Shown here: positions 24,293-35,007 of the stretch, piece by piece
How positions within the stretch are numbered: position 1 is the first letter of the stretch
Layout: each line of letters opens with the position of its first letter
Assembly: GCA_013150955.1 (NCBI GenBank)
Contig: JAADJD010000024.1
Location: forward strand, 68,518 to 103,524
Length of the DNA: 35,007 nt
Direction of reading: 5' to 3'
Origin: Calditrichota bacterium
Lineage (GTDB): Bacteria > Calditrichota > Calditrichia > RBG-13-44-9 > J042
Program-made: the position numbers and the translations under genes
The notes under the pieces: model-generated
The model's input: only the letters and a program-made list of their open reading frames with translations
The model's database searches: none
Told to the model about the DNA's origin: nothing

Positions 24293-24324
24293 ATCCCGGG
24301 ATTTGCCTTATCCCGGGATTTTTT
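24293..24324 (+). terminator. Intrinsic terminator after the chemoreceptor gene
   Basis: Two copies of the self-complementary ATCCCGGGAT (24293-24302 and 24310-24319), separated by 7 nt, form a 10-bp stem followed by six T. A weak promoter-like pair (TTGCCT 24303-24308, 17 bp, TAAATT 24326-24331) overlaps it and could serve the next gene. Confidence 0.85.
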
Positions 24325-24361
24325 CTAAATTTTTGCCAGATAGAAATGGTACGAGGCGCTG

Positions 24362-24757
24362 ATGAAAGGTCGCATCCGCTATGGTCTGGTATTGGGATTA
24401 TTTCTTTTATTGTATATTCAATGCCAGAGCGATCGAAATGCAGAACCCATTCCATCGGAACATCTGAATGAACTCCGGCTGACACTGATTTATTACTCCA
24501 TCCCCACCTGACCGACCTGCCAGCGAATTGAGGCCATCGTGAATGGCCTGGAACAGACCCACCGGGGCAAGCTGCGCGTGGTGATTGTGGACGCCACCAC
24601 CGCCGATGCGAAGGCCGATTTGTCCCTCTATCAGCTGGGATCGCATGGACTATTCATTTATGATGCCCAGGATCAGCTTTTGAAAACCATACCGGGGAAA
24701 CGGCTGAAAGAACTCAACATTCCCCAGCTGGTGGATTCGCTGCTACAAAGTCGTTAA
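24362..24757 (+). CDS. Candidate selenoprotein: thioredoxin-like lipoprotein with U-P-T-C redox motif
   Basis: Read through one in-frame TGA (24509-24511), the gene encodes 131 aa and stops at TAA 24755-24757. GAGG at 24352-24355 is a well-placed Shine-Dalgarno for ATG 24362. Residues 1-21 form a lipoprotein-type signal ending LLYIQC; Gln before Cys21 is unusual. A thioredoxin-like core follows: strand LRLTLIYYSI (38-47), then T-U50-P-T-C53, a helix (QRIEAIVNGLEQTH), strand LRVVIVDATT (71-80) and a strand pair HGLFIYDAQDQLLKTIPG. UGA falls exactly on the first redox Cys of a CxxC motif, and a hairpin suited to be a bacterial SECIS follows. rny, folD, mtaB and the chemoreceptor gene all end on TGA, so UGA is not simply reassigned. 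Without selenocysteine machinery it would be a gene broken by a nonsense mutation. Confidence 0.72.
24531..24549 (+). promoter_or_regulatory. Putative bacterial SECIS hairpin
   Basis: A perfect 7-bp stem AGGCCAT/ATGGCCT (24531-24537 with 24543-24549) closes the loop CGTGA. The stem begins 19 nt and the loop 26 nt after the TGA. Bacterial SECIS elements lie within the coding region just after UGA, with the apical loop roughly 16-37 nt away and a G (usually GU) in its first positions; all of this holds here. SelB recognition is inferred, not shown. Confidence 0.65.
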
Positions 24758-24769
24758 CCCCAATTTTGC

Positions 24770-25010
24770 GTGAGCCTACGAATGACACGAATTCATTCAG
24801 ATTATGCAGTAACCTACGAATGACACGAATTAAAACCAATAAACCCAGATTATGCATTAGAACCGCGAATTACACGAATTAACACCAATAAAAATAATAA
24901 AATGCATTGGTTTATATCTGAATGAAAGTGTTTTCTTGGATATATTCGCTATTTTGTTGATTTTATTCGAATTCATTCGCGTGATTCGTGGTTTAACGCT
25001 TTATTTGGGA
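24770..25010. repeat. Dispersed ~165-bp repeat, complete unit with upstream arm fragments
   Basis: The complete unit is 24844-25010 (cccagattatgcattagaac ... taacgctttatttggga). Its imperfect inverted ends are each about 37-40 bp and both contain 'cgaat.ac.cgaat'. Two further arm fragments lie at 24770-24843. The block fills the convergent gap between the selenoprotein candidate and queG. Confidence 0.87.
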
Positions 25011-29673: not shown

Positions 29674-32534
29674 TTATTTCATCAGTACCATTTTGCGCAC
29701 CTGCTCAAATTGGCCAGCCCTCAGGCGGTAGAAATAAATACCTGCGGGTACATTCAGACCGCTCTCATCCCGGCCATCCCATTGCACCGTGTAACGGCCG
29801 GCTGTTTGACGCCAGTTAACCAGTGTACGCACTTTCTGGCCCAGACTGTTGTATATCACCAGCGTCACATCCCCTGCCCGGGGCAACGCATAACGAATCG
29901 TCGTTTGGGGTTGAAGGGATTGGGGTAATTGGGATGCAACGCGTAAGCCGCGATGGTTGCTTCCGAACCGGTTTCCATACCGGTGTAGGGATCGTTCCAA
30001 TCCAACACATTGGCCCAGATGTCGTAGCCGGTGCCGCCCACATGGCTGGTCGTCCATGTCGTATAAATCCGTTGATTCCATAATTTTACATTTGGGATAA
30101 ATTGGTTTCTATTTTTATGCTTTGTCACCACAAAATTGTTACCCATAGGCATACCGTCCGAAGTATAACGTTGACCGTAAACATCCCAATCCCCATTACG
30201 ATTATCCTGCCATACAACGACAAAATTGTCCTTAGCAACCAGGGATATAGAGGGTCGCCATTGCCATGCTTTACCATCATCCTCATTGACTTTGAAGTTC
30301 GTTCCGATGGGTGCGCCATTTGATTTGTATCGCTGACCATAAATATCCCAATCCCCATCACGATTATCCATCCAGACAATCACAAAATTGCCATAAGTAT
30401 CCAGCGATATGGAAGGAAACCAATGAGTTACATCGCCGCTGTCATCATTTACTTTAAAATTTGATCCAATTGGGGTGCCATGCGAGTCATAACGCTGAGC
30501 ATAAATATCCCAATCCCCATTACGTCGATCTACCCACGCAATTACAAAATTGCCCTTTGCATCCAATGATATAGAGGGAGTCCTTTGCCATTCACTACCG
30601 TTGTCATCATTAACCTTGAAGTTCGATCCAATGGGAATACCGCCAAGGTCATAACGCTGAGCGTAAATATCAGCATTTCCATTTCGATAATCCTCCCACG
30701 CAATCACAAAATAACCTTCCTTACTTAATGATACAGACGGGCATCTTTGCCGTGCGCTACTATTGTCATCATTGACCCTGAAATTGGGTCCTCTTGGTGT
30801 GCCGTCTGATGCATAACGCTGAGCATAAATATCCCAATCCCCATTGCGTTGATCGTGCCATACTATCACAAAACTGCCCCGCGAATCCAATGAAATAGCT
30901 GGATACCACTGTCCCGCACTACCACTGTCATCGTTGACTTTAAAGTTTGACCCGATGGGAATGCCGTCAAATGTATAACGTTGAGCGAATATGTCAGCAT
31001 ATCCATTGCGATAATCTTCCCAAACAATCACAAAATTGCCACTTCTATCCAGAGATATGGAAGAATACCTTTGCCTTGCACTACCACGATCATCGTTAAT
31101 TTTAAAGTTTGACCCTACAGGAGTGCAATTCGAAGTATAACTTTGTCCATATATATCGGTATCTCTATTACGATGATCTTGCCACACAATCACAAAATTA
31201 CCAGCCATATCCAATGATGTGGAAGGTAACACTTGACTTGTATTGCTGTTGTCATCATTAACCTGGAAGTTCGATCCTATCGGAATGCCCTCTGAGGTGT
31301 AACATTGAGCGTAAATATCGGCATTCCCATTGCGATAATCTTGCCACACAATCACACAATTACCAGATCCATTTAGCGATATCGAGGGGAGTGATTGATC
31401 TGCACTGCTGTTGTCATCGTTGACTTTAAAGTTTGCCCCTATGAGAGTGCCGTCTGAATAATAACGCTGAGCGTAAATATCCCGGTTCTCATTCCGTTGA
31501 TCCACCCACACAATTGTAAAATTTCCATCTGCATCATGGGATATAGAAGGATATTCTTGAAGTGAATCGCCACTGTCATCGTTGACTTTAAAATTGGATC
31601 CTATGGGAACGCCATTGGATGTATAACGCTGAGCGTAAATATCGGCATTCCCATTGCGATAATCTTGCCACACAATCACAAAATTGCCACTTCTATCCAG
31701 AGATATGGAGGGAAAAGACCATCTCGATACGCTGCTTTCGGCATCATTGACTTTAAAATTCGAACCTATTGGGGTGCCGTCTGAATCATAATGCTGAGCC
31801 CAAATTTCCCACTCCCCATTGCGACGATCTACCCACACAATAACAAAATTACCATTTGCATCCATTGATACAGAAGGGTATTCCTGGCTTGCACCAGCAC
31901 TATCATCGTTTACTTTGAAATTTGACCCCATGGGTTTACCACTCGTTGCATAGCGCTGGGCATAAATATTCCAATCCCCATCACGATAATCCTGCCACAC
32001 AATTACACAATTGCCATGTGCATCTAATGAGATGGTAGGGGACACTTGCCATGCACTGCCATCGTCATCATTGACTTTGAAATTCGACCCATTAGGAGTG
32101 CCATCCAGGGCGTAACGCTGAGCGTAAATATCCCAATCCCCATTGCGTTCATCGTACCACACGATAACAAAATTACCATTTTCATCCATCGAAATTTGTG
32201 GATTCCATTGAAAGGCTTCTCCAACATTTTCATTTACCTGAAAATCTTCAATAATTGCCTGGAGCGGCAACCGTTCCTCAGCAGTTGACGCATGGTTGCC
32301 TGGGTTGGTCACAGGAATTCCCAAAACGGCAGGTACATCATGCCAGTTATAGCACCACTCCCGTAGCCAATGATCCCCCAAAGGAATCTCCTCTGGCACC
32401 ACTCCCCTCATACGCCAATTCTCCTGTTCACTTTCTGTAAGAAACGGGAAATTGGGATGAAAGAAAAACTGCGCCCAAACGGGAAAGATGAGAAATAAAA
32501 GTATTGGAATACTTTTAAAATATCTTAACAACAT
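29674..32534 (-). CDS. Secreted repeat (beta-propeller-like) protein with C-terminal sorting domain; frameshifted
   Basis: The start is ATG 32532-32534, 5 bp after GGAGGAG, giving a signal peptide (MLLRYFKSIPILLFLIFPVWAQ). Thirteen ~54-aa repeats follow, built on PSISLDxxGNFVIVWxDxRNG, DIYAQRYxSxGxPIGSNF and KVNDD, plus a degenerate last one. The frame then breaks in the sorting domain. After HPNYPNPFNP the minus strand has CCCCAAACG where one more C would restore QTTIRYALP, and the continuing frame reads to LRAGQFEQVRKMVLMK and stops at 29674. With one base added, the gene is exactly 954 codons. The break is at the G-run 29907-29910 (plus strand). As given, the protein ends early at 29865 without its full sorting domain. 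Sequencing error, recent mutation and phase variation are all possible. Function unknown, probably surface-exposed. Confidence 0.85.
30113..32219 (-). repeat. Thirteen tandem 162-bp coding repeats
   Basis: The period is exact at most joints: for example, 'ataaatatcccaatcccca' occurs 162 bp apart at 30346 and 30508. Each unit encodes 54 aa with the core SLDxxGNFVIVWxDxRNG and SNFKVNDD. Units differ at many codons, often silently, so the array is not a very recent expansion. Confidence 0.88.
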
Positions 32535-32816
32535 GACACTCCTCCATATGGTGGATAGAACGTAACAAAATTGAGGCCGATACAACTTTCTTTGAGAAAT
32601 CAACAAATCCATATCACAAAAACTTTAATAAATTTTTTCAATGGCTTCTTATCTTGTGTTACCATTTCAAAATTCCAAGATCCAGTTCGAACACTTGCTT
32701 AATTGACAATTACTATGCCAAAATAAAAATGCCGTTTTGTCTTAATTTTTAAAAGATATTGTGCAATTATTGAGACTTCTATTCAGTGAGGTGTGTTATA
32801 ATTGACACAGCTGATC
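32535..32816. other. AT-rich leader of the frameshifted repeat-protein gene
   Basis: About 280 bp of AT-rich sequence upstream of the ATG at 32534. The frame of that gene stays open to 32612, but the Shine-Dalgarno and signal peptide favour the later start. I see no gene and no convincing promoter pair. Confidence 0.5.
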
Positions 32817-33234: not shown

Positions 33235-33339
33235 CCGGTTGTTTAGAAAAACATGGGGAACAGTCTCTTATTTATCATTCTCATTTTGCAATCTGTGCAA
33301 TGGGTAATGTAATAAACAATCTTTTCATCCTCTCATTTT

Positions 33340-35007
33340 TTACCGCACCAGCACCATCTTCCGCACCTGCTCAAATTGGCCAGCCTTCAGGCGGTAAAAA
33401 TACACCCCAGCCGGCAGCTGTCGCCCGGAGTCATCCCGGCCATCCCATTGCACCGTGTAGCGGCCGGCCGGGCTGGTGTTCCTCCACCAGGGTGCGCACC
33501 ACCTGGCCCAGGGAGTTATACACCTGAAGGCTTACCCGATTGGCCCGGGGTAAGTGATACTGGATAATGGTGCCAGGGTTAAAAGGGTTGGGGTAGTTTT
33601 GCAATAAACCAAACACTGTGGGTACTGGTTCCTGAGCGCTCTCCGGGATACCCACAATGCGTAAATTCTCATACCAGGCGATCTTATCATCCCTTGAAGA
33701 CGCCGAGAGCACATCCACATCCCCATCACCATCCAGATCGACCGCATAAACTGAGATGGCACCAGCCGCGGAATCGCTGATCACATGCTCTGTGAAATTC
33801 TCGTTACCATCATTCTCATACCAGGCAATCTTGTCGTCAAAATATGACGCCGAGAGCACATCCACATCCCCATCACCATCCAGATCGACCGCATAAACTG
33901 AGATGGCACCATCCGCGGAATCGCTGATCACATGCTCAGTGAAATTTCCCCGACCATCATGCTCATACCAGGCAATCTTATTATCATACAACGTCGACGA
34001 CGCCGAGAGCACATCCACATCCCCATCACCGTCCAGATCAACCGCATAAACCGAACTAGCACCATATGCAGTCCTGCTGATTACATGCGTGGTAAAATTC
34101 CCCCGACCATCATGCTCATACCAGGCAATCTTATTATCCAAATCCGACGCCGAGAGCACATCCATATCCCCATCACCGTCCAGATCAGCCGCATAAACCG
34201 AGCGAGCACCATCCGCTGAAGTGCTGATCACATGCTCAGTGAAATTCTCGTTACCATCATTCTCATACCAGGCAATCTTGTCGTCAAAATATGACGCCGA
34301 GAGCACATCCACATCCCCATCTCCATCCAGATCAATAGTATAAACTGAGCGGGCACCATCCGCAGATCTGCTGATCACATGTTCGGTGAAATTTCCCCGA
34401 CCATCATGCTCATACCAGGCAATCTTATCGTCGCTAGACGACGCCGAGAGCACATCCACATCCCCATCACTATCCATATCAACCGCATAAACCGATTGTG
34501 CACCATCCGAAGTGCTGATCACATGCTCGGTGAAATTCCCCCCACCATCATGCTCATACCAGGCAATCTTGTCATCCAAAGCCGACGCCGAAAGCACATC
34601 CACATCCCCATCACCATCCAGATCAATAGCATAAACCGATTGTGCACCATCCGCGGAAGTGCTGATCACATGCTCGGTGAAATTCCCCCGTCCATCATGC
34701 TCATACCAGGCAATCTTATCATCCTTATACGATGCCGAGAGCACATCCACATCCCCATCTCCATCCAGATCAACCGCATAAACCGAGCGGGCACCATCCG
34801 CAAATCTGCTGATCACATGCTCGGTGAAATTCCCCCGACCATTATTCTCATACCAGTCTATATATCTTCCATGTGCCGAGAGCACATCCACATCCCCATC
34901 CCCGTCCAGATCCGTAGCATAAACCGAGCTCGCACCATATGCCGCACTTCTGATTACATGTTCGGTGAAATTCCCCTTTCCATCGTGCTCATACCAGGCG
35001 ATCTTAC
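33340..35007 (-). CDS. Secreted FG-GAP/VCBS-like repeat protein with sorting domain; 5'-truncated and frameshifted
   Basis: The frame is open to the right edge, so the start and signal peptide lie outside the window. Nine ~49-aa repeats are present, each with IAWYEHDGRGNFTEHVIS, SVYAVDLDGDGDVDVLSAS and a DDK joint. The DLDGDGDVDVL segment is a DxDxDG-type calcium-binding loop as in FG-GAP/VCBS propellers. After the repeats come NYPNPFNPGTIIQYHLP and SLQVYNSLGQVVRTLVEEHQP. The minus strand then reads CAGCCCGGCCGGCCGCTAC, one base too many for Q-P-A-G-R-Y. The uncorrected frame ends at 33431. Past the extra base, near 33470 (plus strand), the frame continues as TVQWDGRDDSGRQLPAGVYF to KMVLVR and stops at 33340. 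Likely a cell-surface or secreted protein; role unknown. Confidence 0.85.
33690..35007 (-). repeat. Nine tandem ~147-bp coding repeats (FG-GAP/VCBS type)
   Basis: The segment 'gagagcacatccacatcccc' recurs about every 147-150 bp. Units are nearly identical in DNA across the calcium-loop part, suggesting frequent homogenisation or recent expansion. The array runs off the window edge. Confidence 0.88.

Follow-up and report, generated by a model that had tools for sequence, protein, structure and literature searches.

A gene in the stretch of Calditrichota DNA analysed here (35,007 nucleotides, the window) very probably encodes a translated selenoprotein, a reading in which the insertion of selenocysteine (Sec) itself is inferred from comparison. 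We read it as the representative of a new family of thioredoxin-like selenoproteins, set apart by Pfam and NCBIfam models and by the catalogue entries tested. The gene lies on the plus strand at 24362..24757, with an ATG start at 24362, a single in-frame TGA at 24509..24511, and a TAA stop at 24755..24757; a Shine-Dalgarno-like GAGG (24353..24356, plus strand) stands 5 nt before the ATG, and homologues have a like architecture. Read through the TGA, it specifies a protein of 131 residues, MKGRIRYGLVLGLFLLLYIQCQS...YYSIPTUPTCQ..., with Sec at residue 50, in the first position of a UxxC motif, and the putative resolving Cys at residue 53 (24518..24520). Frame, UGA, UxxC motif and TAA are all as an initial annotation of this DNA had placed them. 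The upstream neighbour, a chemoreceptor gene, is separated from the selenoprotein gene by its own terminator-like hairpin (24293..24326, plus strand). Directly 3' of the gene, at 24780-25010, are imperfect repeats with the word ACGAATT, which occurs again around 14071 and 32985. Elsewhere in the window, two adjoining repeat-rich secreted proteins on the minus strand (29674-32612 and 33250-34891) both show a frame change within a C-terminal YPNPFNP-type domain, the remainder continuing in another frame; sequencing error, decay, or a programmed shift may be responsible.

Homologues were sought among 98 relatives, the 40 Calditrichota genomes, and 385 genomes including distant ones, as well as in a second phylum (82 genomes) and among 387 relatives of one of the genomes that carry the gene, G411. 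Together these searches gave nine family members, counting that of the window. Eight of the nine, from six genera and two phyla, have one in-frame TGA at the identical codon of the UxxC motif: five in Calditrichota (G000, which is the window genome, G002, G006, G008, and G015, representing four genera) and three in another phylum (G229, G411, and G412, representing two genera). The ninth, from G003, a member of the same taxonomic family as the window organism, has TGC in the alignment column of the UGA and encodes Cys at position 50, so that the in-frame UGA aligns with the redox-site Cys or Sec of the homologues, the column in which the initial annotation had proposed to look for one or the other. 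Columns invariant in all nine sequences are M1, C21, Y44, Y45, P48, U/C50, C53, G96, D101, and G112. Overall protein identity of the Sec homologues to the window copy is 26-35%, and G+C content differs as well. Opposite-strand frames of roughly 93-120 amino acids cover the selenoprotein genes of relatives (L031, L032, L033, L034, L069, L070), and automatic annotation may therefore call the wrong strand there.

A hairpin, AGGCCAU-CGUGA-AUGGCCU, begins 19 nt after the UGA and is the candidate bacterial SECIS element (24531..24549, plus strand). Its perfect 7-bp stem (24531-24537 with 24543-24549) and CGUGA loop (24538-24542), which starts 26 nt after the UGA, are as first described. Published limits for the bacterial SECIS are a loop of 3-9 nt with a G in its first two positions, a stem of 4-16 bp, a loop located 16-37 nt after the UGA, and an energy of at most -7.5 kcal/mol (PMC13188914). 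The window hairpin falls within these limits, at -12.1 kcal/mol for a 40-nt stretch, and some homologues, at -5.3 to -7.3 for the corresponding stretch, fall slightly outside the energy limit. A search of the region with Rfam models returned only terminator-like or chance matches, none of them a SECIS. The folding energy of a 71-nt stretch, compared with shuffled sequences, is ordinary (z 0.22), and the hairpin of a single sequence is therefore no evidence by itself; the comparative tests, however, exceed chance. All eight Sec genes have the hairpin at equal distance from the UGA, with the loop CGUGA except for CGUGG in G002, and the codons ACC ATC GTG AAT GGT are nearly identical throughout. 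Where residues are identical, the same codon is used in 109 of 116 comparisons within codons +8 to +12, against 391 of 838 elsewhere, and none of 5000 within-gene synonymous codon shuffles reached the observed agreement (mean 43.7, sd 6.8). Across the Sec genes, pairing holds in 89% of the stem's cells, and two pairs of the stem are compensatory: G-C for A-U in the window, and A-U for G-C in G229. Run over 119 kb, a covariance model made from the SECIS stretches of all eight genes matches only those eight (E < 0.5), a result that speaks to specificity only, because the eight matches arise by construction. As sequence comparisons, these findings show that the hairpin is under selection. The Cys form reads AAT GAG CTG AAA TCC at this position and has no such hairpin. 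It also lacks the Ile-Val-Asn-Gly motif conserved in the Sec forms and, since motif and hairpin are lost together, it is probably the RNA that dictates this peptide motif.

The window belongs to contig 6 of a 4.07-Mb genome that is 99.7% complete. That genome encodes a tRNA-Sec (selC) with anticodon UCA, SelA (582 bits) followed by SelB (376 bits), and SelD (392 bits), all over curated cut-offs; the four components that the initial annotation had proposed to look for are thus all present. Across the 40 genomes of Calditrichota, selA scores over its cut-off in 28. The SelD of the window genome (G000:C43:40325-41245; L027, L072) is itself a predicted selenoprotein of a known family, with an in-frame UGA (TCAGUASK) and, after it, a hairpin whose loop is G-rich. 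One Sec-form genome, G229, lacks a SelB over the cut-off; its assembly is 98% complete and divided among about 210 contigs. Other matches in the SelB search of this assembly include EF-Tu-like and CysN frames, and one SelB-like frame (C43) was rejected as really CysN by its own sequence and its CysD neighbour. The contig that carries the G229 gene has a G+C content of 0.40, like the 0.41-0.42 of two other contigs of the assembly, and contamination is therefore not indicated. For the absent SelB, a gap in the assembly is the simplest guess.

In a phylogenetic tree the Cys gene of G003 pairs with the window gene (support 93/99) within a clade otherwise composed entirely of Sec forms, although its long branch makes the placement less sure. 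In the G003 genome selA gave no match, and SelB none over its cut-off; the assembly is 86% complete, so that the missing selA and selB could be a gap. Subject to that limit of the assembly, the most fitting account is that Cys replaced Sec as the Sec system was lost.

Coding constraint continues past the UGA. The frame that follows the UGA or Cys codon stays open for 78-83 codons in all nine genes, and for 78-81 in the Sec genes. Downstream of the UGA, dN/dS is 0.019/0.12 in one same-genus pair (L019-L020) and 0.118/0.44 in another (L054-L055). Differences at the three codon positions number 1, 1, and 6 in one of these pairs and 7, 8, and 16 in the other, and so fall mainly at third positions. 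Low dN/dS together with third-position changes implies coding constraint downstream of the apparent stop.

Several other explanations of the UGA were weighed against this evidence. A Cys codon might have mutated to TGA in a pseudogene, or have been misread; a single change turns TGC or TGT into TGA, and a Cys form does exist. The same TGA, however, recurs in eight genes of six genera in separate assemblies. Because independent genomes share it, sequencing error, which the initial annotation had named as a concern at 24509-24511, can be excluded, and with purifying selection downstream and a conserved hairpin to account for as well, we give decay or error almost no credence. It is also very improbable that the UGA is a true stop, ending a 49-residue lipopeptide whose downstream part would be translated separately. 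Ordinary gene finders would call the gene in that way, but the Cys homologue (L018) is one continuous frame, and the active site would be split in a thioredoxin fold that needs both sides. Slightly more room, though still little, is left for near-cognate suppression of the UGA by Trp or Cys, or for its reassignment, with a hairpin that is merely regulatory or causes translational pausing. Conserved hairpins 3' of stop codons can promote ordinary readthrough, and G229 lacks a SelB over the cut-off. Against this stand the full Sec machinery of the window genome, an aligned residue that is a redox Cys rather than Trp, and a Cys form that has no hairpin, in a genome without a selA or selB match. 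Other genes in the window, moreover, end in TGA, as do the homologues L019-L021 themselves, which upholds the earlier statement that UGA is not generally reassigned here. Selenocysteine insertion is the reading we retain.

The predicted protein has a hydrophobic N-terminal signal segment (residues 1-20, 24362..24421, plus strand; helix 10-19 in the model), which ends at Cys21 (24422..24424), the residue predicted to be lipidated after signal cleavage. An exported N-terminus of this kind, with its invariant Cys, is predicted in all nine members. The earlier description of a lipoprotein-like signal holds for the hydrophobic segment and the invariant Cys and is weakened in the window copy by an atypical lipobox, Tyr-Ile-Gln-Cys, with Gln at position -1; relatives G015, G008, and G002 have a better one (e.g. 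Leu-Ala-Ala-Cys). From export signal and invariant Cys, the product is most likely a lipoprotein that faces out of the cytoplasm. An AlphaFold2 model, built on only seven sequences (the window protein and six relatives), predicts a thioredoxin-fold domain at residues 39-131, with block-mean pLDDT of 92-97 over residues 41-130. The confidently modelled part, residues 40-130, has five strands (40-46, 71-77, 96-100, 106-111) and helices in this order: strand 40-46, helix 51-66, strand 71-77, helix 81-89, two strands (96-100, 106-111), and helix 120-129. The best PDB matches of the model are thioredoxins, at a modest TM of about 0.5 by query length, and Sec50 stands at the start of helix 1, as does the nucleophilic Cys of thioredoxin; the thioredoxin-like fold with UxxC before a helix, proposed at the outset, is borne out to this extent. 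The cis-Pro that precedes strand 3 in thioredoxins is missing. Its site is occupied in the window by His95-Gly96 (24644..24649, plus strand), where Gly96 is invariant in all nine and residue 95 is His in every Sec form and Ser in the Cys form.

Neither a Pfam nor an NCBIfam model recognizes the protein at its cut-off, in keeping with the initial annotation, which had not recognized its family; the nearest are generic thioredoxin and SaoT. The family resembles thioredoxin (PF00085) and the UxxC thioredoxin-type selenoproteins (PMC13188914) in predicted fold and in UxxC at the CxxC site. It differs from thioredoxin in its predicted exported, Cys-anchored N-terminus, in a motif of type PGUPFC rather than WCGPC, and in the replacement of cis-Pro by His-Gly, and its PF00085 score, 21.8 bits, is below the gathering score of 23.5. 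The best specific selenoprotein model is that of SaoT (NF040730), a thioredoxin-like (seleno)protein that has UxxC in common with our family. It matches several members weakly (best E 9.6e-6), with at most 24 bits among the scores listed against a cut-off of 65, and its 83 positions include none over the signal segment. Glutaredoxin (PF00462) and glutaredoxin-like (PF05768) models, whose motif the PGCPFC found here resembles, give weak matches to six and five of seven members, with best E-values of only 4.8e-4 and 0.012, and the window protein scores below both gathering scores. A separate Cys-only family of thioredoxin lipoproteins (L042, L047, L056, L058; motif GSVNCIPCK) occurs in the same and the neighbouring phylum. 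It shares the lipoprotein-like N-terminus and CxxC and is distantly similar (E of roughly 1e-5 to 1e-8) but forms its own clade (100/100) and keeps the cis-Pro (IPTQVFLD), nearer to canonical thioredoxin. A 2026 review catalogues 119 prokaryotic selenoprotein families (PMC13188914); NCBIfam and Pfam models matched our protein to none of those within reach of this test, families represented only by cd or PTHR entries lying outside it.

The following course of events may be proposed. A ribosome starting at 24362 would read to the UGA at 24509, where the hairpin at 24531-24549 would recruit SelB with GTP and Sec-tRNA(UCA); Sec would be inserted, and translation would proceed as far as the TAA (24755). 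The resulting protein would be exported and most likely lipid-anchored at Cys21. Sec50 would then attack an oxidised substrate and Cys53 resolve the mixed intermediate, the pair cycling between selenol/thiol and selenenylsulfide as it reduces disulfides or a similar oxidised substrate, and a separate reductant would recycle the oxidised pair. Only the genetic part of this scheme is backed by data; redox activity, partner, and substrate we infer. Neighbouring genes, compared by eye across homologue loci, include no partner common between genera, and for that reason none is proposed. A role as disulfide reductase (thiol/selenol oxidoreductase) is the probable one. Its competitor, which bears on function and not on Sec insertion, is a selenoprotein that is peroxidase-like, metal-binding, or selenium-handling by way of the His at the cis-Pro site. 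That His replaces cis-Pro in all Sec forms, and weak similarity to SaoT points the same way; a UxxC motif that keeps its resolving Cys, on the other hand, fits dithiol chemistry, and no partner genes point elsewhere, so that we consider such a role unlikely, if worth bearing in mind. We offer with similar reserve the suggestion that these proteins form a new extracytoplasmic subtype of the thioredoxin fold, in which Sec and the cis-Pro-site His might act jointly on a substrate outside the range of ordinary thioredoxins.

Since annotation normally takes UGA for a stop, genes such as this one are easily missed or shortened in public genomes. Our search of open-licence papers on Calditrichaeota or Caldithrix and selenoproteins found nothing relevant; within those papers Calditrichota is a phylum without a selenoprotein report, and many of its members encode the selenocysteine machinery. 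The family described here would add one to the roughly 119 catalogued for prokaryotes. A compact experiment of nature is offered by its Cys member, in which a Sec-to-Cys change goes together with loss of the hairpin and whose genome yielded neither selA nor selB.
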